From positions 1 to 47,031 of the forward strand of contig MNXW01000288.1 in the NCBI GenBank assembly GCA_001871515.1: DNA of 47,031 bases, read 5' to 3'. The DNA is from Comamonadaceae bacterium CG2_30_57_122 (lineage in GTDB: Bacteria > Pseudomonadota > Gammaproteobacteria > Burkholderiales > Burkholderiaceae_C). The stretch's first letter is position 1; every line of letters begins with the position of its first letter. This document shows, one piece after another, positions 248-8,367 of the stretch. The notes under the pieces are model-generated. The model was not told where the DNA came from, did not search any database, and was given only the letters and a program-made list of their open reading frames with translations. The position numbers and the translations under genes are program-made.

Positions 248-2206
248 TCAATGACCCAGCTTTCGGTACAGCGTCTGCCGACTGATACCCAGGTGTCGCG
301 CCGCTTGCGACATGTTGCCGCCACTGTTTTGCAGGGCCTGGCGCATGGCTGCTTGCGAAAGTTGCGCCAGGCTTTGCGGCGATTCATAACCAGACACCAC
401 GCGTAACGAGGCGGTCTGGTGGTGCTTGGGTGGCATTGGCGGCACGCGCAGGTCTTCCAGCAAATCATCCGACAAATGCGCCCAGTCAATACACCGCTCA
501 TGCGGCTCCAGCATGGCGCTGGCGGTGCGCAAGGCATTGGCATATTGACGCAGGTTGCCAGGCCAGGTGTGTGCGCCCAAACGCGCCAGCAACTCCGGTG
601 CCACGTGCAGGCTGCGCTGCGGGTTCAAGTCACTCAGCAGGCGCTGCGTCAGCACGGCAAAGTCAGTGCGCTCGCGCAAAGCGGGCAACTGCACCGTCAG
701 GCCGTTGATGCGGTAATACAAATCGCTGCGAAAACGCCCCTGCTCGGTGGCTTCACGCAATTTGCAATGGGTGGCGCACATCAAGGCAAAGTCAACCGCC
801 ACGGCTGGGCCTCCCCCGAGCGGACTGACTTCGCGCTCTTGCAGCACGCGCAGCAGGCGCGCCTGCAGGGGCAGTGGCATGTCACCAATTTCATCCAGAA
901 ACAGCGTGCCGCCATGGGCTTCACGCAGCCGCCCGGGGTTGCCTTCACGCCTCGCGCCGGTGAAAGCGCCCGGGTTGTAGCCAAACAGCTCGGCTTCAAT
1001 CAGGTTCTCTGGCACGGCTGCGCAGTTGATGGCCACAAACGGCTTGGCGCGACGCGGGCCGCTGCCATGCGCAGCCCGTGCAAAAAGCTCTTTGCCCACG
1101 CCCGATTCGCCCTGGATCAGCAGCGCTATGGGCTTGTCTGCCACGCGCCTGGCTTTGTCGGCGGCGCTGCGCCAGCACAGGTCACCGGAGTCCAGCTGCG
1201 CTAGCGCATCTGCAGCATCCACGTGCCCGGCAAGCTGATTAACCCCCAACAGCGGCATCACACGACCATGCCTGCCCAGCGTGGTCGCATCGTGCTGCAC
1301 CAGCGCGAACAGGGCCGTGCCATCACGCCGGTGCACCTGTACCGGTTGGCCCGGATGTCGTCTGTGCTGCTGCAGCAGCGCATCCAGTGACACATCAAGC
1401 AAAGTCTTGAGCGGCACGGCATCCAGATCAGCCGTGGTCAGGCCCAGTTGTACCAGTGCAGCACGGTTGGCCCCCACCACCCAGCCGTCACCAGACAGCG
1501 CCAGAATGCCCTCGGCCACGATGCCAATACCCTCGCGCTGGGGGTGCGGATACAGCCGGATGTGCTGGCGGCAAGTGGCATCCATCAGGCGGTTTTCAAT
1601 CAGGCGCGCAGCCATGCTGACCAAGCCGTAGGTGTGCGGATGCCCGCCGCGATGGTCACCCGAAATGTCGAGCACGCCCATGAGTTCACCGGTGGCCGAC
1701 ACAATGGGCGCAGCAGTGCAGGTTAAAAAATCATTGCGCTCAAAGAAATGTTCGCCCCCATGAATCTCAACGTGGCTGCGCTCGGTCAGCGCGGTGCCAA
1801 TGGCGTTGGTGCCCCGGTGTTGTTCATGCCAGGATGCCCCGTTGGACAGCGCCACTTGCTGCGCGCGTTGCAAAAAATCAGTACGGCCGAGCGTGTGCAT
1901 CAAAATGCCTTGCGCGTTAGCCAAAATCACCATGCTTTGGCTGTCTTGCACCTGTTCAAACAACACTTCCATCACCGGGCGCGAATGCACCAGCAACTCA
2001 TGCTGGCTGGCCATGATGCGGCTCAGTTCAGCGGCGCTGGCGTGCGCCGTGTCACGCGCTGGTCCATTCGGCAACAGCCCGGCGGCCAGGCTGCGCTGCC
2101 ACGAGCGAGCCACACTTGCATCAATGCCTTCAGGCAGACAGTCGCCGTGTTCCAGAAAGTGCAATCGGGCCTGGCGCAAAGCCGAGGCAGTAGGCGGGGT
2201 GCGCAA
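248..2206 (-). CDS. acoR: Sigma-54-dependent transcriptional activator, AcoR family
   Basis: A 652-residue enhancer-binding protein that would remodel sigma-54 RNA polymerase to open promoters. A GAF-like sensor region spans roughly residues 75-210. The AAA+ domain follows with Walker A GESGVGKE (366-373), the sigma-54 contact loop GAFTGA (413-418) and Walker B TLFLDEIGD (434-442). A Fis-type helix-turn-helix ends the protein (NMSQAARHLGISRQTLYRKL). The start is a TTG with AGGAG eight bases upstream; no ATG occurs before residue 64. The gene is divergent from the aldehyde dehydrogenase operon, as acoR genes often are. All motifs are intact, so it should be active. The inducer (acetoin, alcohol or aldehyde in relatives) cannot be read from sequence. 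Confidence 0.9.
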   Translation of the reverse strand: MRTPPTASALRQARLHFLEHGDCLPEGIDASVARSWQRSLAAGLLPNGPARDTAHASAAELSRIMASQHELLVHSRPVMEVLFEQVQDSQSMVILANAQGILMHTLGRTDFLQRAQQVALSNGASWHEQHRGTNAIGTALTERSHVEIHGGEHFFERNDFLTCTAAPIVSATGELMGVLDISGDHRGGHPHTYGLVSMAARLIENRLMDATCRQHIRLYPHPQREGIGIVAEGILALSGDGWVVGANRAALVQLGLTTADLDAVPLKTLLDVSLDALLQQHRRHPGQPVQVHRRDGTALFALVQHDATTLGRHGRVMPLLGVNQLAGHVDAADALAQLDSGDLCWRSAADKARRVADKPIALLIQGESGVGKELFARAAHGSGPRRAKPFVAINCAAVPENLIEAELFGYNPGAFTGARREGNPGRLREAHGGTLFLDEIGDMPLPLQARLLRVLQEREVSPLGGGPAVAVDFALMCATHCKLREATEQGRFRSDLYYRINGLTVQLPALRERTDFAVLTQRLLSDLNPQRSLHVAPELLARLGAHTWPGNLRQYANALRTASAMLEPHERCIDWAHLSDDLLEDLRVPPMPPKHHQTASLRVVSGYESPQSLAQLSQAAMRQALQNSGGNMSQAARHLGISRQTLYRKLGH

Positions 2207-2347: not shown

Positions 2348-2385
2348 CTTCTTTTGTTGGTGCAATGGTAGTCAGGAACGCATGG

Positions 2386-2412
2386 CCTGACGATATGAAA
2401 CACCGTGCATAG
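2386..2412. promoter_or_regulatory. 27-bp element shared with the tup regulator promoter (copy 1)
   Basis: The element reads CCTGACGATATGAA, one variable base, CAC, one variable base, GTGCATAG. It matches 7230-7256 at 25 of 27 positions. The halves CGATAT and GCATAG form a weak dyad, loosely like ModE-type operators. It lies about 130 bp upstream of the sigma-54 promoter of the aldehyde dehydrogenase gene. It is a candidate site for the ModE-type regulator encoded at 7249-8367. Confidence 0.5.
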
Positions 2413-2542
2413 AGCACCCGTGCCATGACTGTCACAGAACTTGACAGGTGTTCCACCGCTCAACACCCAGAGCCCCTCTTGGACATCCGCGCCCGCATGA
2501 AAAAGTTGTTTGAAATCAACGTATCTATCGGATTTCAAAGCG

Positions 2543-2560
2543 TTGGCACGCATCTTGACT
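2543..2560 (+). promoter_or_regulatory. Sigma-54 (-24/-12) promoter candidate for the aldehyde dehydrogenase operon
   Basis: TTGGCACGCATCTTGACT matches the consensus TGGCACG-N4-TTGC with GG and the -12 element in the right spacing; the last base of TTGC is A here. It lies 62 bp before the ATG at 2622, leaving a normal leader, and sits opposite a sigma-54 activator gene. Confidence 0.65.
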
Positions 2561-2621
2561 CATGACATGGCCCGCAAGGGAAATATTTATCCATTCATTG
2601 CACAAAATTCAGGAGACACGC

Positions 2622-4142
2622 ATGATCTACGCAGCCCCCGGCCAAGCCGGCGCAAAAATCGCCTACAAGGCCAAATACGACAACTTCATCGGCGGCAAAT
2701 ATGTGGCCCCGCTCAAGGGGGAATACTTTGACGTGATCAGCCCGATCAGCGGTAAGGTTTACACCCGGGCCGCCCGCTCGGGTGCCGAAGACATTGAGCT
2801 GGCACTTGATGCAGCCCACGCCGCGGCAGATGCCTGGGGCAAAACATCGGTCACCGACCGCTCCAACATCCTCTTAAAAATTGCCGACCGCATTGATGCC
2901 AACTTGGAACTGCTGGCCTACGCCGAAACCGTGGACAACGGCAAGCCGATCCGCGAAACCCTGGCCGCTGACATTCCTTTGTCAAGCGACCACTTTCGCT
3001 ACTTTGCCGGATGCATCCGCGCCCAAGAAGGCGCACTCAGCGACATCAACGAAACCACCGTCGCCTATCATTACCACGAGCCACTCGGCGTGGTGGGGCA
3101 AATCATCCCCTGGAACTTCCCTATTCTGATGGCCGCCTGGAAACTGGCCCCGGCGCTGGCTGCAGGCAATTGCGTGGTGCTCAAACCGGCTGAATCCACT
3201 CCGGTGAGCATTCTGATTTTGCTGGAAGTCATTGGCGACCTGCTGCCCCCGGGCGTGCTCAACATCGTCAACGGCTTTGGTCGTGAAGCCGGCATGCCGC
3301 TGGCCACCAGCAAGCGCATTGCCAAGATCGCCTTCACTGGCTCCACCAGCACCGGCCGCGTGATTGCCCAGGCCGCGGCCAACAACCTGATTCCAGCCTC
3401 GCTGGAACTCGGCGGCAAATCGCCCAACGTGTTCTTTGCCGACATCATGGACAAAGACGACGGCTTTTTGGACAAAGCCATCGAAGGCCTGGTGCTGTTT
3501 GCCTTTAACCAAGGCGAAGTCTGCACCTGCCCGAGCCGCGCGCTGATTCAGGAAAGCATTTACGACAAGTTCATGGAACGTGTGCTGCCACGCGTCAAGG
3601 CCATCAAGCAAGGCAATCCGCTGGACTCTGAGACCATGCTCGGAGCCCAAGCCTCGCAAGTGCAACTGACCAAAATCTTGTCGTACCTGGACATTGGCAA
3701 ACAAGAAGGTGCCCAAGTGCTCACCGGTGGTCATCAAGCCAACCTGGCGGGCGACTTGGCCGGTGGCTATTACGTGGAGCCCACGCTGCTCAAGGGTCAC
3801 AACAAAATGCGCGTGTTCCAGGAAGAAATTTTTGGCCCCGTACTGGCCGTAACCACCTTCAAGGACGAAGCTGACGCCCTGGCGCTGGCCAACGACACGC
3901 TGTACGGCTTGGGTGCTGGGGTATGGAGCCGCAACGGCAACGTGGCCTACCGCATGGGCCGCGCCATCAAGGCCGGTCGCGTCTGGACCAACTGCTACCA
4001 CGACTACGCCGCCCACGCCGCGTTTGGTGGCTACAAAGAGTCCGGCATCGGCCGCGAAACCCACAAAATGATGCTTGACCACTACCAGCAAACCAAGAAC
4101 CTGCTGGTGAGCTACAGCGAAAGCAAGCTGGGTTTCTTCTGA
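2622..4142 (+). CDS. acoD: NAD-dependent aldehyde dehydrogenase, AcoD/ExaC type
   Basis: A 506-residue cytoplasmic enzyme that would oxidise acetaldehyde or related aldehydes to acids. Visible family features are PWNFP near 163, the cofactor loop FTGSTSTGR (238-246), the general base Glu262 in LELGGKSP and the catalytic Cys301 in [12 protein letters not shown]. The ATG at 2622 is chosen because AGGAG lies at 2611-2615 and the length then equals that of AcoD/ExaC enzymes; a start at 2562 would sit on the sigma-54 promoter. The stop overlaps the next gene's ATG by one base (TGATG), so the two are translationally coupled. The divergent AcoR-type activator is the likely regulator. Acetoin, ethanol or another alcohol could be the source of the substrate. 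Confidence 0.9.
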
Positions 4143-4534
4143 TGGTTGAAAAAGTCGTTGCCACTCCGGCTGCGCTGGATCTGGTGGCGTTCTTGAAGGC
4201 CAAGCACGGCCCCGAACTGATGTTCCATCAGTCCGGCGGCTGCTGCGACAACAGCGCCGCCAATTGCTACCTGCTGGGCGAGATCACCATAGGCGCGGGT
4301 GATGTCTATCTGGGTGACCTTGGCGGCTGCCCATTTTACATTGGCAAAGCGCAATACCAATACTGGAAACACACCCAGCTGATCATCGACGTGATCGACG
4401 GCAGCGGCGGTGATTTTTCACTGGAAACGCCCGAGGGCAAGGGTTTTTTGACGCGATCAAGGGTGTTTACTGAAGCTGAGCTCATTGAACAGACCCAGGC
4501 AGACCTCAAGGCTGGCCAAAACCAAAACGCTTGA
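4142..4534 (+). CDS. DUF779 family protein
   Basis: A 130-residue soluble protein of the DUF779 family, which is commonly found directly after AcoD/ExaC-type aldehyde dehydrogenases. The signature MFHQSGGCCDNSAANCY near residue 28 is present, with adjacent cysteines that could bind a metal or react with an aldehyde; neither role is established. It starts on the last base of the preceding stop codon, which indicates coupled translation. Its last 29 bases overlap, tail to tail, the end of the modA remnant on the other strand, so an ancestral intergenic region has been lost here. Confidence 0.85.
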   Translation: MVEKVVATPAALDLVAFLKAKHGPELMFHQSGGCCDNSAANCYLLGEITIGAGDVYLGDLGGCPFYIGKAQYQYWKHTQLIIDVIDGSGGDFSLETPEGKGFLTRSRVFTEAELIEQTQADLKAGQNQNA

Positions 4535-4742
4535 ACACCGCTTGTGCATCCGCTGCCAGCAAGGACTTGGCAAACGTTTGGGCTGCGGGCGATGCCGATT
4601 GACGCACGGTGATGCCGTAGCGCGCTCCGACTTGCAGTTGTGGCGGGATTTGCACCACTTTCAGGTGCGGCACTTCTTTTTGTGCCGCCACTGCATTGGT
4701 GCAATAGGTCAGAAAGTCAGCGTATTCAAGAGGAATTTCATG
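4506..4742 (-). pseudogene. modA: C-terminal remnant of a molybdate-binding protein gene (modA)
   Basis: About 75 codons remain. The peptide contains ADFLTYCTNAVAAQKEVP, LQVGARYGITVRQ and AAQAVFKRFGF, which match the C-terminal lobe of ModA, the periplasmic molybdate-binding protein. The reading frame runs without interruption to its TGA at 4506-4508, but everything upstream (about two thirds of the protein, including signal peptide and first lobe) is missing; the join lies just after the tupA stop. No modB or modC is nearby. It cannot make a working binding protein. Recognition is by motif memory only. Confidence 0.7.
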
Positions 4743-4749
4743 GTCATGC

Positions 4750-5586
4750 TCACTTGACCGCATTCGGAAAGAACAACTGTTCGCCCCCAATTTTGTAGCT
4801 GGCAATCACCGCCTGGCCTGCGCTGCCGGTCACCCAGTCGATGAACTTCTGGCCCTCTGCCACCTTCACATGCGGGTGTTTGGCCGGGTTGATCAGCATC
4901 ACGCCGTATTGGTTGAAGAGGCGCTTGTCGCCTTCGACCAGCACTTTCAGGTCGCCCCGGTTCTTGAAGTTGAGCCAGGTGCCGCGGTCGGTCAGCGCGT
5001 AGGCATTCGTGCTGGATGCCATGTTCAGCGCCGGGCCCATGCCGCAGCCACACGATTTGTAGCCGCTGCCTTGCTTGTCGCTCAGGTCGGCCATTTTCCA
5101 GAAGCGCAACTCAGCGGCATGCGTGCCGCTTTTGTCACCGCGCGAGATGAACGGGCCGTTGGCAGCGGCGAGCTTTTTCAACGCCAGAACCACGTCGCTG
5201 CCTTTGACTTGCAGCGGGTCGCTGGCGGGCCCCACCACCACAAAGTCGTTGTACATGACTTCAAAACGCTTGACCGCAAAGCCTTCGGCCACCACTTTTT
5301 CTTCGGCCACCTTGTCGTGAACAAACAGCACATCTGCGTCGCCCCGGCGGCCCATGTCGATGGCCTGACCAGTGCCCAGAGCCACCACTTTCACATCCAT
5401 GCCGCTGGCCTTTTTAAACTCGGGCAGCAGCACCGAGAACAAGCCAGATTGCTCGGTGGAGGTGGTCGAGGCGACCACAATGGACTCTGCCTGGGCTCCC
5501 ATAGTTACTACCAAAGATGTAGCTACTAACGCACGCTGCATAAGCGCTAGAGGGCTAAATGACATATAAGATTTCAAAGTTTTCAT
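4750..5586 (-). CDS. tupA: Tungstate ABC transporter, periplasmic binding protein
   Basis: A 278-residue binding protein for tungstate. After a signal peptide (residues 1 to about 33, ending GAQA-ES) comes the TupA anion signature VVASTTSTEQSGL, then GTGQAIDMGRRGDADVLFVH and SRGDKSGTHAAEL, all expected for TupA rather than ModA. The ATG overlaps the tupC stop by four bases (ATGA). tupA is the last gene of the operon here, whereas it is usually first. Residues 5-23 of the signal peptide are encoded by a copy of the dispersed repeat (5520-5574), so the export signal has been built or rebuilt from repeat DNA. Confidence 0.88.
   Translation of the reverse strand: MKTLKSYMSFSPLALMQRALVATSLVVTMGAQAESIVVASTTSTEQSGLFSVLLPEFKKASGMDVKVVALGTGQAIDMGRRGDADVLFVHDKVAEEKVVAEGFAVKRFEVMYNDFVVVGPASDPLQVKGSDVVLALKKLAAANGPFISRGDKSGTHAAELRFWKMADLSDKQGSGYKSCGCGMGPALNMASSTNAYALTDRGTWLNFKNRGDLKVLVEGDKRLFNQYGVMLINPAKHPHVKVAEGQKFIDWVTGSAGQAVIASYKIGGEQLFFPNAVK
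5520..5574 (+). repeat. Dispersed repeat, copy B (inside tupA signal peptide)
   Basis: The + strand reads TAGCTACTAACGCACGCTGC, then ATAAGCGCTAGAGGGCT and an AT-rich tail with CATATAAG. This follows the family order: TAGCTGCT, GCGC, ATAAGGGCTAGAGG, TATAAG tail. Read on the gene strand it encodes SPLALMQRALVAT, the hydrophobic core of the TupA signal peptide. Similarity continues to about 5499. Confidence 0.65.
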
Positions 5587-6452
5587 GCTAACTCTCCAGT
5601 GACAAACAAATGGGCCGCCGGATAGCGCAAGGCCAACAGCGTCCCGCCAAAAAAATCCTCAACCGGCAAATCTGCCAGTACCCGACCCTGCTCCAGATAA
5701 ATCACCCGGCTGGCCAAGCGCTTGACCTGGCCCAGGTTGTGGCTGGCAAATACCAGCGTCACCGGTGTCTCGCGTGCGTCCATCCTGTCTGCTGGGGCGC
5801 TTGACGACTTGGCAAATTCTTCAATCAAGGCCTCAACCTCGCGCTTGGCATGCGGGTCCAGGCTGGCGGTGGGCTCATCGAGCAGCAACACCTGCGGCTG
5901 CAGCGCCCAGGCCCGCGCCATAGCCACACGCTGCATCTGGCCGCCCGAGAGCTGGCGCGCATTGCGCCCGGCCAGCTCGCTCAAACCCACCCGTTTTAAG
6001 GCCAGCAGCGCAGCTTGCTTGGCCTGACCCCACGGCGTACCACGCAGCCACAAACCTAGCGCCACGTTGCGCAACACCGACCAGCGCATCAGGTGCGGTT
6101 TTTGAAACAGCATGGCTTGGCCAAGCGCCGGCGCGCTGCTGAACTGACCCGATGTTGGCAAAAGCAGCCCGTGCAACAGCCGCAGCAGTGTGCTTTTGCC
6201 ACAGCCATTGGCTCCAATCAGCGCCACCCGCTCGCCCGGCGAAATGCTCAGACTAAGCTGTGACAAAGCCCGGACCGCACGCTCAGGCGACCCAAAATGC
6301 ACGCTCACCCCAGCCAGGTCAAAGATGCTCGATGCGGGGGGGCTGCTCCTGTTAATACCACTGATGTTTGTAGAGAACGACGGGCTCAACCGGCCGCAGT
6401 CATCTGACTGGGCAGGAGCCAAATCCGCGCGAAAAAGGTATTTGGTGGTCAC
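5583..6452 (-). CDS. tupC: Tungstate ABC transporter, ATP-binding protein
   Basis: A 289-residue ABC ATPase, assumed to power TupB. It shows Walker A GANGCGKST, signature LSGGQMQRVAMARAW, Walker B VLLLDEPTAS and the switch histidine in VFASHNLGQ. The start proposed is the GTG at 6452, whose last bases overlap the tupB stop (GTGA), matching the ATGA overlap at the other end; an upstream TTG at 6503 would extend 17 residues into tupB. Residues 1 to about 33 are an unusual serine- and proline-containing leader before the ABC fold begins at FDLAGVSVHF. The true start could lie further downstream, but no ATG is available there. Confidence 0.82.
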   Translation of the reverse strand: MTTKYLFRADLAPAQSDDCGRLSPSFSTNISGINRSSPPASSIFDLAGVSVHFGSPERAVRALSQLSLSISPGERVALIGANGCGKSTLLRLLHGLLLPTSGQFSSAPALGQAMLFQKPHLMRWSVLRNVALGLWLRGTPWGQAKQAALLALKRVGLSELAGRNARQLSGGQMQRVAMARAWALQPQVLLLDEPTASLDPHAKREVEALIEEFAKSSSAPADRMDARETPVTLVFASHNLGQVKRLASRVIYLEQGRVLADLPVEDFFGGTLLALRYPAAHLFVTGELA

Positions 6453-7183
6453 AACGACAGCACCGGCACAGCCAACCAACCCAGCTCTTGACGCTCGCGC
6501 CAATGCCGCACCAGTGCAATCAGGGCGTTAAGCAGCAACACCACACTGAGCAAAATCAGCCCCAAGCCCAGCGCCAGCGGCAAATCGCCCTTACTGGTTT
6601 CCAGCGCGATGGCCGTGGTCATGACACGGGTGAAGCCGTCAATGTTGCCGCCCACAATCATCACCGCGCCCACTTCAGAGACCGCCCGGCCAAAAGCGGC
6701 AATCATCACCGTCAGCAGCGCATAGCGCTCATCCCAGGCCAACAACAGGCTGCGCAGCACAGGCTTGGCACCGAGCGACTGCAGTTGCTCGCCATGCAGC
6801 GTTTGCGCATCTTCCACCACTTGACGCGTCAGTGCTGTGACCACCGGCAGCACCAGGACGGCCTGCGCCAGCACCATCGCCTTAAAGCTAAACAGCCAGC
6901 CCAAATAACCCAAGGGTCCGGTGCGTGACAACAGCAGGTAAATCACCAGCCCAACCACCACCGAGGGCACGGCCAAAAAGGTGTTAAGCAGCGTCAACAC
7001 CGCCGCACGCCCGGCAAAACGCGCCACACCCAGCCAGGCTCCCAGCAGCAAGCCCAGCGCACAAGCCATGGCACTGGCGCTGGCACTGACCGACAGCGAC
7101 CGGCCCACAATGGTGAGCAGGCCGGGGTCCAGGGAGGTGATGAGGTTCAGCGCAGTGGCGGCACTGTCAGAAAAAGTCGTCAT
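6449..7183 (-). CDS. tupB: Tungstate ABC transporter, permease
   Basis: A 244-residue inner-membrane permease of the binding-protein-dependent type. About five hydrophobic segments are visible, and the cytoplasmic EAA-like loop is LQSLGAKPVLRSLLLAW followed by AAFGRAVSEVGAVMIVGGNI, characteristic of the TupB/ModB/CysT group. The ATG at 7183 is preferred because TupB proteins begin close to the LDPGLLTIV segment; a GTG at 7219 would add 12 residues without a ribosome binding site. It is the first gene of tupB-C-A and is divergent from the ModE-type regulator. A 27-bp element (7230-7256) lies about 50 bp upstream and probably controls it. Confidence 0.87.
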   Translation of the reverse strand: MTTFSDSAATALNLITSLDPGLLTIVGRSLSVSASASAMACALGLLLGAWLGVARFAGRAAVLTLLNTFLAVPSVVVGLVIYLLLSRTGPLGYLGWLFSFKAMVLAQAVLVLPVVTALTRQVVEDAQTLHGEQLQSLGAKPVLRSLLLAWDERYALLTVMIAAFGRAVSEVGAVMIVGGNIDGFTRVMTTAIALETSKGDLPLALGLGLILLSVVLLLNALIALVRHWRERQELGWLAVPVLSL

Positions 7184-7229
7184 GCGGGTGTTCAAAACAA
7201 GATGCGGTATCGTAGCCACCGAATTAAAC

Positions 7230-7256
7230 CCTGACGATATGAACCACTGTGCATAG
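7230..7256. promoter_or_regulatory. 27-bp element at the tup regulator start (copy 2)
   Basis: This is the second copy of the sequence at 2386-2412 (25 of 27 identical: CCTGACGATATGAA, CAC, GTGCATAG blocks). It lies between tupB and the divergent regulator, and the regulator's GTG start codon (7249) is inside it. This placement fits an autoregulatory operator that also covers the tup promoter. The DNA-binding partner is inferred to be the ModE-type regulator. Confidence 0.55.
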
Positions 7257-8367
7257 GCTCCAACTTCACTACACCCTGTCGCGCGATGCCAGTCCGGCCT
7301 CGGTACGCAACCCCTTGATTGACTTGCTGCAAGCGGTGAGCAGCCAAGGCTCCATCTCGGGCGGCGCGCGCGCCTTGGGCCTCAGTTACCGCCACGTCTG
7401 GGGCGAACTCAAACGTTGGGAAAAAGAACTCGGCAATGAACTGCTGGTCTGGGAAAAAGGCCAGTCAGCCCGACTCACCGACTTTGCCAACAAGCTGATG
7501 TGGGCCGAACGGCAAGCGCAGGCGCGGCTGGCACCGCAGATCGATGCCTTGCGCGCCGAGCTGGAGCGCAGTTACGCGCTGGCGTTTGACGACACGGTGC
7601 ATGTGGTCACGCTTTACGCCAGCCATGACGATGCCTTGTCGCGTCTGCGTGAATTCGCGTTAAAGGCAGAAGATCAAAAATTGCATCTTGACATCCGCTT
7701 CACCGGCAGTGTGGATGCCATCCGCGCCCTGAACGAAGGCCGCTGCGTGATGGCGGGCTTTCATACCCTGATCGACATGGGCAAAAAAACCGGCACCGAG
7801 CGCACCTACAAGCCGCTGCTGCAACCAGGTCTGCACAAGATCATTGGTTTTGCCAAACGCACCCAGGGCCTGATGGTGGCACGCGGCAACCCCTTGGGCT
7901 TGCACAGCCTGCAAGACGTGGCCCAACGCCAGGCGCGCTTTGCCAACCGCAGCCTGGGCAGTGGCACGCGCGTGGTGCTGGACGACCTGCTGGCTCAGGC
8001 CGGCTTGAGCGTCGCGCAGCTCAACGGCACGAACCGGGGCGAACCCTCGCACGCCGCCGTGGCCAACGCAGTGGCCGCCGGGCAATCTGATGCCGCGCTG
8101 GGCATTGAAGCCGCCGCCGTCAGCGCCGGGCTGGACTTTGTGCCTCTGACGCAAGAACGCTACCACCTGGTGTGCCTGAAATCGGCCCTGACACAACCCG
8201 GCATCGTGCAACTGATGCAGTTGCTGCGTAGCCCGCCATGGCAACACACCGTAGCCACCATTGCAGGCTACACACCGGTGCAAAGTGGTGAGGTACTGGC
8301 CATGCGCCGGGTACTGCCGTGGTGGAGGTTTATGCCCCGAAACATGAAGCATGTGCTGCCCGCGTAG
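7249..8367 (+). CDS. ModE-type DNA-binding protein with periplasmic-binding-like ligand domain (tungstate/molybdate regulator)
   Basis: A 372-residue predicted regulator. Residues about 20-105 form a LysR/ModE-like winged helix (SISGGARALGLSYRHVWGELKRWEKELG, then LLVWEKGQSARLTDFA). Residues about 115-340 resemble a solute-binding protein domain (HDDALSRL, FTGSVDAIRALNEGRCVMAGFH, GSGTRVVLDDLLAQAG, HAAVANAVAAGQSDAALGIEAAA), the same architecture found next to molybdate or tungstate transporters. The start is GTG; the ATG ten bases upstream runs into a stop. No ribosome binding site is visible, so translation may be weak or leaderless. The last nine codons and the stop lie inside a dispersed repeat (8336-8395). 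It probably senses tungstate or molybdate and represses tupBCA. Confidence 0.8.
   Translation: MHRLQLHYTLSRDASPASVRNPLIDLLQAVSSQGSISGGARALGLSYRHVWGELKRWEKELGNELLVWEKGQSARLTDFANKLMWAERQAQARLAPQIDALRAELERSYALAFDDTVHVVTLYASHDDALSRLREFALKAEDQKLHLDIRFTGSVDAIRALNEGRCVMAGFHTLIDMGKKTGTERTYKPLLQPGLHKIIGFAKRTQGLMVARGNPLGLHSLQDVAQRQARFANRSLGSGTRVVLDDLLAQAGLSVAQLNGTNRGEPSHAAVANAVAAGQSDAALGIEAAAVSAGLDFVPLTQERYHLVCLKSALTQPGIVQLMQLLRSPPWQHTVATIAGYTPVQSGEVLAMRRVLPWWRFMPRNMKHVLPA

Follow-up and report, generated by a model that had tools for sequence, protein, structure and literature searches.

A candidate operator shared by a tungstate-type uptake locus and an aldehyde dehydrogenase operon in Comamonadaceae

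What is a nearly identical 27-bp element doing both at the head of a tungstate-type uptake locus and in front of an aldehyde dehydrogenase? The question is raised by positions 1-47,031 of contig MNXW01000288.1 of Comamonadaceae bacterium CG2_30_57_122 (draft assembly G000: 336 contigs, 84.7% complete); this whole 47,031-nucleotide stretch is referred to below as the window. It carries, in order, an AcoR/DhaR-type activator gene on the minus strand, which we take to be acoR; the genes of an ExaC-type aldehyde dehydrogenase (ALDH) and a DUF779 protein on the plus strand; tupA-, tupC- and tupB-like genes on the minus strand; and, on the plus strand again, the gene of a regulator here called REG. 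The two copies of the element, CCTGACGATATGAAACACCGTGCATAG at 2386-2412 and CCTGACGATATGAACCACTGTGCATAG at 7230-7256, had been noticed in a first-pass annotation as agreeing at 25 of 27 bases, and direct reading confirms this, with two differences; of the two divergent control regions in which that annotation placed them, the first is here corrected to the one between acoR and ALDH. From the comparisons described below it appears probable that the element is a REG operator shared by tup/REG and ALDH, at which tungstate-bound REG would most likely repress acoR and ALDH.

The core of the element is the 22-bp C-N-ATATG-N8-TGCATAG, with CGATATG-N8-TGCATAG as its strict search form. When up to three mismatches are allowed, the two copies are the sole matches in the window, and none of 100 dinucleotide shuffles yielded two. 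With a weight matrix built on the sites at the REG start in 80 further loci, the ALDH-side copy scores 40.4 bits, a tie with the best of the 80, and the REG-side copy 38.6 bits, the next-best place in the window scoring -0.8; the single occurrence claimed for each copy thus holds, there being no comparable third site. A scan of the organism's own assembly with the motif, which the first-pass annotation had proposed, finds the perfect core only at these two places, so that it is not a widespread simple repeat; with two mismatches there are seven other matches, versus 2 for a reversed-pattern control. Chance and simple repetition were ruled out as explanations by the shuffles and by the own-genome, genus and matrix scans.

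The element is closely tied to REG across genomes. From 388 loci found in a protein search, 80 with close REG relatives were retained, titled mostly as Rhodoferax, other Comamonadaceae and uncultured betaproteobacteria. The element lies over the REG start in all 80 (mismatches to the strict form: 0 in 55, 1 in 23, 3 in 2); a tup gene is likewise present in all 80, with a divergent tupB within 500 bp in 77. Because the start codon (GTG in 74, ATG in 6 and TTG in 1 of the 81 loci, window included) lies inside the right half-site, part of this conservation is coding. In other genera, sites also precede tup genes with REG elsewhere or unseen in the stretch examined (L229, L249, L252 and others), which is conservation beyond what coding can explain. 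In the window itself the likely GTG start at 7249 sits within the gene's own predicted operator, so that bound protein would cover the start of its own gene; the N-terminal His-Arg of REG is invariant, as the double constraint of operator and coding may explain.

Of 89 genus genomes, 72 encode REG, and a perfect site occurs in precisely these 72 and in none of the other 17; the reversed-pattern control gave 0 matches. Many of these genomes are incomplete assemblies, and in the genus and family scans the counts of sites and places, as well as the matching of genomes between scans, were made by eye. (The REG match of G020 is missing the N-terminal part, and the exact distance from site to REG start is not readable there.) The genus scan yielded 92 perfect sites, one at REG in each of the 72 genomes and 20 others, of which 18 precede ALDH and 2 a molybdopterin oxidoreductase. 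Seventeen of the 20 were read as regions (15 ALDH, 2 molybdopterin oxidoreductase with FdhD); the remaining three, in the window, G047 and G071, all precede ALDH. The site at L126:4108-4129 lies upstream of a 923-residue molybdopterin oxidoreductase with FdhD, assigned by family search, that passes no NCBIfam cut-off, and that at L134:4220-4241 upstream of a similar one, judged by eye; this protein is an unclassified Mo/W enzyme. In 399 genomes of the family, 106 perfect sites were found, versus 1 control match. Forty-two of these were read, in 39 regions chosen by eye as unusual rather than at random: 28 precede tup genes, 4 ALDH and 3 aorABC. Outside the family, 291 genomes gave 9 sites versus 3 for the control, none of them beside tup or ALDH among the proteins searched and one near a REG-like protein of 34% identity; a spread of the element beyond the family was rejected, these matches being mostly chance. 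The element thus looks like an operator for the regulator encoded next to the tungstate-type transporter, and the operator proposed in the first pass for the second copy gains support, at the level of sequence conservation, from its place at the REG start in all 80 loci and from the co-occurrence in the genus.

The ALDH side was compared in the 39 genus genomes with a visible ALDH start; G069, where the start is cut by the contig end, was excluded from an initial 40, and G073 is entered twice in the 40-locus tables and once in the 39-genome statistics. A site with at most two mismatches precedes ALDH in 32 of 34 genomes with REG and in none of five without (Fisher 3.6e-5), always at -222 to -238 from the ALDH start and with at most one mismatch in 28. 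It is kept in G005, a single-contig genome in which ALDH and REG lie about 567 kb apart, and four more ALDH sites are found in another genus of the family (L231-L234). In three of the genomes without REG (G002, G025, G034) ATGGTG at the acoR -10 place, the predicted activating repeat and the sigma-54 promoter are all kept, and only the right half-site is recognisable, which may be read as decay of an operator. The defined columns of the site carry 1.80 bits in 36 sequences versus 0.49 for the flanks, a difference inflated by selection at up to two mismatches. Seven genomes lack the site, and to account for them four changes are needed on the ALDH gene tree, a number as low in only 3 of 500 label shuffles, so that absence is not one event. 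The comparison supports an element kept before ALDH, probably as an operator, and absent from ALDH in the five genomes without REG. Control of ALDH by a metal sensor, as first suggested, accordingly survives in the distribution of the site and needs amending as to the sensor, which is not ModE proper.

REG combines an HTH_1 helix-turn-helix (HTH) domain with a PBP_like domain. It scores 37.1 bits with the ModE model TIGR00637 (cut-off 98.5), and a Pfam search at E <= 0.001 found no TOBE/molbindin domain, PBP_like being present instead, and no LysR_substrate domain, PF12727 being matched in its place. When its profile was compared with the PDB, ModE chains matched over the HTH only (2ijl, E 2.5e-6; 1b9m, E 0.007), and matches of its sequence to solved structures were, except for one marginal hit, confined to the HTH. 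The predicted structure (predicted local distance difference test score 85.6) has a long linker helix at 78-113, and the best Foldseek matches of the model are full-length LysR-type chains (best E 1.1e-14, template-modelling score about 0.4); the LysR-type architecture of HTH_1, linker helix and PBP-like effector domain is found in REG. It is not a canonical ModE: the HTH is ModE-like, the fold LysR-like and the sensor PBP_like, with no TOBE. The earlier description of the second copy as covering the start of a ModE-type regulator is right for the likely GTG start, the regulator being ModE-like in its DNA-binding domain only. A fold search with the sensor domain alone gave type II binding folds; tungstate-bound ModA/WtpA and TupA were among them, as were binders of phosphate and sulfate and the effector domains of LysR regulators, with no clear preference, and a viral structure library gave general binding-protein folds only. 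Since so many oxyanion binders match, the ligand of REG is suggested by its context and not by its fold.

At both copies in the window ATSGTA ends 17 bp upstream of TGACGA, which on the minus strand reads by inspection as a -10/-35 pair; strongly conserved columns lie at the tupBCA -10 distance from the core in the 81 REG sites. On the other side of the first copy, a predicted activating repeat, to which AcoR would bind, begins 17 bp beyond the element. A regular expression for the conserved TGACA of this repeat placed it at +29 to +31 in 20 genomes out of 32, gave no match in 8 and hit another position in 4. The first copy ends 131 bp upstream of the sigma-54 promoter of ALDH, in agreement with its original placement upstream of that promoter. 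TGGCA[CT]N5TTGA is present in 38 of 40 ALDH loci (one genome counted twice), with TTGA where the usual sigma-54 -12 element is TTGC. Both features of a sigma-54-dependent operon, a -24/-12 promoter and an AAA+ activator (Sigma54_activat, 206.5 bits in the window), are present.

The metal-dependent partner that such a circuit supposes is encoded in most relatives. AFOR_C, the mark of tungsten-type aldehyde oxidoreductases (AORs), was found in 67 of the 89 genus genomes, on one contig with REG in 31 and within about 32 kb of it in 30 (coordinates by eye). Among the 39 genomes compared for ALDH, the site precedes ALDH in 31 of 32 with AFOR_C and, of the 7 that lack AFOR_C, only in the window's own genome; both enzymes and the ALDH site thus co-occur in 31 genomes. 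The gene order in G047 runs aorC, aorB, aorA, an AcoR-like gene without AAA+, modE, modCBA, a LOG-type gene and azlCD, followed by acoR, ALDH, DUF779, tup and REG (aor, the AcoR-like gene and modE confirmed by Pfam; mod, LOG and azl named by eye). The window begins inside azlD, its contig ending short of the place that AOR has in the relatives. Another contig of the same assembly, C141 (L226, 4,092 bp), shares window bases 3-195 exactly and then diverges (L226 94-330); it carries azlD, azlC and the LOG-type gene, and stops before the place of modABC/aorABC in G047. The divergence lies in an apparent dispersed repeat, with a weaker copy at L226:3916-3977; the assembly probably broke at that repeat, and C141 is likely the left neighbour of the window. 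A xanthine-dehydrogenase-type aldehyde oxidase was also considered for this genome and rejected, its single MoCoBD_1 protein being xanthine dehydrogenase (TIGR02965, 1124 bits).

The aor genes have candidate sites of their own. In 11 of 19 AOR loci the 300 bp preceding aorA contain a palindrome, [CA]TATG-N10-CATA[GT]; in the form CTATG-N10-CATAG it is seen at L196:5585-5604 and upstream of aorA also in L197, L199-L202, L205, L207, L209, L210 and L214. It has the same 20-bp span as the REG site and resembles the ModE box, and the nearby ModE gene in G047 could own it instead of REG. A perfect REG site is present at each of three aorABC operons of another genus. The AcoR-like protein encoded divergently to aorABC in G047 (L196:5766-6911) has GAF and a Fis-type HTH and no AAA+; it is perhaps the AOR regulator, and without AAA+ it could not drive sigma-54 alone.

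The arrangement can be pictured as follows. The copy between tupBCA and REG would give metal-dependent autoregulation, with the transporter off at high tungstate. A second copy would have been recruited to the ALDH control region, 17 bp from the presumed AcoR activating site and, where acoR is divergent, also over its presumed -35. Tungstate-bound REG would hold down acoR and ALDH while the tungsten enzyme AorABC can be made; with tungsten exhausted, REG would leave the DNA, tungstate uptake would rise and the metal-free NAD enzyme would take over. We infer that REG binds the element, that tungstate is its ligand, that the sign of control is repression, this being the simplest sign for tungstate-bound REG, and that this organism has an AOR. 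It is about as likely as not that this amounts to a tungsten-economy switch, in which a PBP-domain tungstate sensor, from a constant position beside the AcoR site, would veto a sigma-54 ALDH promoter and so confine production of the metal-free enzyme to conditions in which aldehyde or alcohol is at hand while AorABC lacks tungsten. If true, one sensor would link metal uptake, a tungstoenzyme and its metal-free substitute in Rhodoferax-type bacteria and at least one further genus.

A number of points weigh against this proposal. AFOR_C was not found in the window's own assembly (84.7% complete), so that for this organism an AOR is predicted on the strength of synteny; the Mo- or W-dependent aldehyde oxidase that the first-pass annotation imagined as the enzyme being replaced is matched by a tungsten-type AOR in most relatives, often near tup/REG, and by none found in this assembly. 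The AFOR_C tally takes any match, weaker paralogues and fragments included. By eye, ten genomes have REG without AFOR_C, among them G060, 100% complete, where the ALDH site is absent as well; five have AFOR_C without REG, all less than 90% complete. In G030, which encodes both REG and AFOR_C, the ALDH site is degenerate (3 mismatches), and relatedness inflates the Fisher values, absence being four changes for seven genomes. At seven of the 42 family sites read, neither tup nor ALDH nor AOR is adjacent: L242, L244 and L259 adjoin a molybdenum-hydroxylase-type [2Fe-2S] protein, a binding-protein transporter gene and moeA, and L235, L240, L246 and L247, with no relevant neighbour among the proteins searched, are probably chance. 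The Tup proteins fall below the curated TupA and TupB cut-offs (218.7 vs 400; 168 vs 320); the best NCBIfam model for the window's binding protein is TupA, and the permease exceeds the cut-off of NF038017. The sensor fold of REG does not separate tungstate from molybdate. Finally, sequence does not reveal the sign of control, and LysR-like regulators, which the REG model resembles, are often activators.

This last point leads to the opposite sign, in which tungstate-bound REG would activate or co-activate acoR/ALDH and the tungsten AOR and NAD-type ALDH would be made together when tungsten is present. The centre of the site would lie about 44 bp upstream of the predicted start of tup and, where present, of acoR, a usual position for an activator, and in Pelobacter carbinolicus a tungstate-rich medium adds a tungsten-independent acetylating aldehyde dehydrogenase (PMC4275255). 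Set against this is the tup site of the same geometry, since an uptake system would be expected to be repressed by its own substrate; we regard activation as possible and on the unlikely side.

It is doubtful, too, that REG acts on acoR only, with ALDH following through the amount of AcoR, attractive as this is in that AT[GC]GTA stands at about the acoR -10 place, at a distance similar to that before tup, in 24 of 32 ALDH sites. No divergent acoR was detected at the ALDH site in eight genomes (G003, G007, G016, G017, G062, G073, G074, G088; 1.3-3.2 kb upstream examined), yet the site is still at -222 to -237 of ALDH, the acoR -10 word being absent in seven (all but G007). Scored in 31 of the 32 genomes, the distance from site to sigma-54 promoter falls into two classes, 127-131 bp (20 genomes) and 139-143 bp (11 genomes), with none between; the classes differ by one helical turn (Rayleigh R 0.85 at 10.5 bp) and so tie the site to the ALDH promoter. 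Because the site stays without an adjacent acoR, it is held to act on the ALDH promoter, and on acoR where adjacent; acoR as sole target was given up on these two grounds. In G003 acoR and ALDH are separated by a frame resembling iron-type alcohol dehydrogenase (by eye; L197:18353-19561), which has a REG-like site and an activating repeat on either flank. In G088, REG itself is on the other side of the ALDH site.

A third alternative, to which we give a similarly low chance, is that REG senses molybdate or both oxyanions, and that the link to ALDH reflects molybdenum economy. The sensor resembles ModA/WtpA, TupA, phosphate and sulfate binders alike, and two genus sites precede a molybdopterin oxidoreductase with FdhD; tup genes, however, accompany REG in 80 of 80 loci, and G047 has a separate ModE with TOBE beside its mod-type transporter genes (mod names by eye). 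Finally, that the ALDH-side copy is a functionless leftover of local duplication near tup is very improbable, for although the window's operons are adjacent and their linkage recurs in several relatives, the site is retained in unlinked genomes and another genus, is conserved above its flanks and is missing where REG is lacking, and passive duplication was rejected on these grounds.

The genes and predicted control elements are collected in Table 1. The likelier start of the tupB-like gene is the in-frame ATG at 7183, the tabulated frame being the longest. Ten more frames were scanned at 8602-29564 of the window, including a TRAP transporter DctQM, Dxs, a polyprenyl synthase, a Rieske ring hydroxylase, a dihydrolipoyl acyltransferase, CheA and three frames without Pfam match; no tungsten- or molybdenum-related gene was found among the ten.

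Table 1. Predicted genes and control elements around the two copies of the element (window positions)
Feature	Position	Strand	Basis or remark
AcoR/DhaR-type sigma-54 activator (GAF, AAA+, Fis-type HTH)	248..2206	-	Pfam; start maybe further upstream
Predicted -10 TACCAT of acoR; predicted -35 TCGTCA 2388-2393, spacer 17	2365..2370	-	Inspection
Element copy 1, 22-bp core 2391-2412	2386..2412	+	Predicted REG operator before ALDH; overlaps predicted acoR -35
Imperfect inverted repeat TGTCACAGAACTTGACAGGTGT, predicted AcoR upstream activating site	2430..2451	+	Conserved columns at fixed offset
Sigma-54-type promoter TGGCACG-N4-TTGA of ALDH	2544..2558	+	TGGCA[CT]N5TTGA conserved
NAD-type aldehyde dehydrogenase, ExaC type (acetaldehyde dehydrogenase; ALDH)	2622..4142	+	Passes ExaC model NF050026, 941.7 bits (cut-off 900)
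DUF779 protein, ALDH neighbour	4142..4534	+	PF05610 134.2 bits
tupA-like tungstate-binding protein	4750..5586	-	NF041772 218.7 bits, under curated cut-off 400
tupC-like ATPase	5583..6503	-	ABC_tran 105.6 bits; longest frame, true start probably internal
tupB-like permease	6449..7219	-	NF041773 168 bits (cut-off 320); NF038017 220.5 bits (cut-off 100)
Predicted -10 TACGAT of tupBCA; predicted -35 TCGTCA 7232-7237, spacer 17	7209..7214	-	Inspection
Element copy 2, core 7235-7256	7230..7256	+	Predicted REG operator between tupBCA and REG; spans REG start codon
REG, LysR/ModE-type HTH (HTH_1) and PBP_like domain, GTG start	7249..8367	+	PF12727 (PBP_like) 189.2 bits; PF00126 (HTH_1) 36.9 bits

Among known systems, ModE is the molybdate-responsive repressor of modABC in Escherichia coli and also acts on molybdoenzyme genes. 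REG has a related HTH and presumably likewise controls an oxyanion transporter through an inverted-repeat operator; it differs in lacking TOBE/molbindin, in its PBP_like sensor and LysR-like linker helix, and in that its targets here would include an enzyme without a metal cofactor. TunR, the tungstate-responsive regulator of sulfate-reducing bacteria, has a ModE-like HTH and controls tup genes; its second domain and host group, to our knowledge, differ from those of REG, and we know of no aldehyde dehydrogenase among its targets. AcoR/ExaC acetaldehyde dehydrogenase operons with sigma-54 promoters are a known kind, and activator, ALDH, DUF779 and sigma-54 promoter are common to these and to the window; the window has in addition, at ALDH, a predicted site for the regulator of tungstate uptake, which none of the five relatives without REG shows.

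The physiology of the proposed switch has precedent. In P. carbinolicus the choice of enzyme for acetaldehyde oxidation depends on tungsten supply: W-dependent AORs rise with tungstate, and a Mo-dependent isoenzyme is expressed under tungsten limitation (PMC4275255). The alternative enzyme is thus Mo-dependent there and a metal-free NAD enzyme with a sigma-54 promoter here, and the consulted text of that paper names no regulator or operator. AorABC of Aromatoleum aromaticum is a three-subunit tungsten AOR of a betaproteobacterium that overlaps in role with an aldehyde dehydrogenase, a mutant without the latter having five-fold more AOR activity; tungsten-dependent control of the dehydrogenase is not described in the consulted text (PMC6365974). 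In the open-access literature, as far as its searchable text extends, no report was found of an aldehyde dehydrogenase controlled in response to tungsten by a regulator of this kind, nor of a metal-free alternative enzyme under such control. For other metals, enzyme switches that spare the metal are known; what is predicted here is a tungsten-sparing switch for betaproteobacteria in which the sensor is named, the operator exact and the pair of enzymes testable. It would make the role of tungsten in these bacteria directly testable and provides a predicted regulon for the HTH/PBP_like type of regulator.

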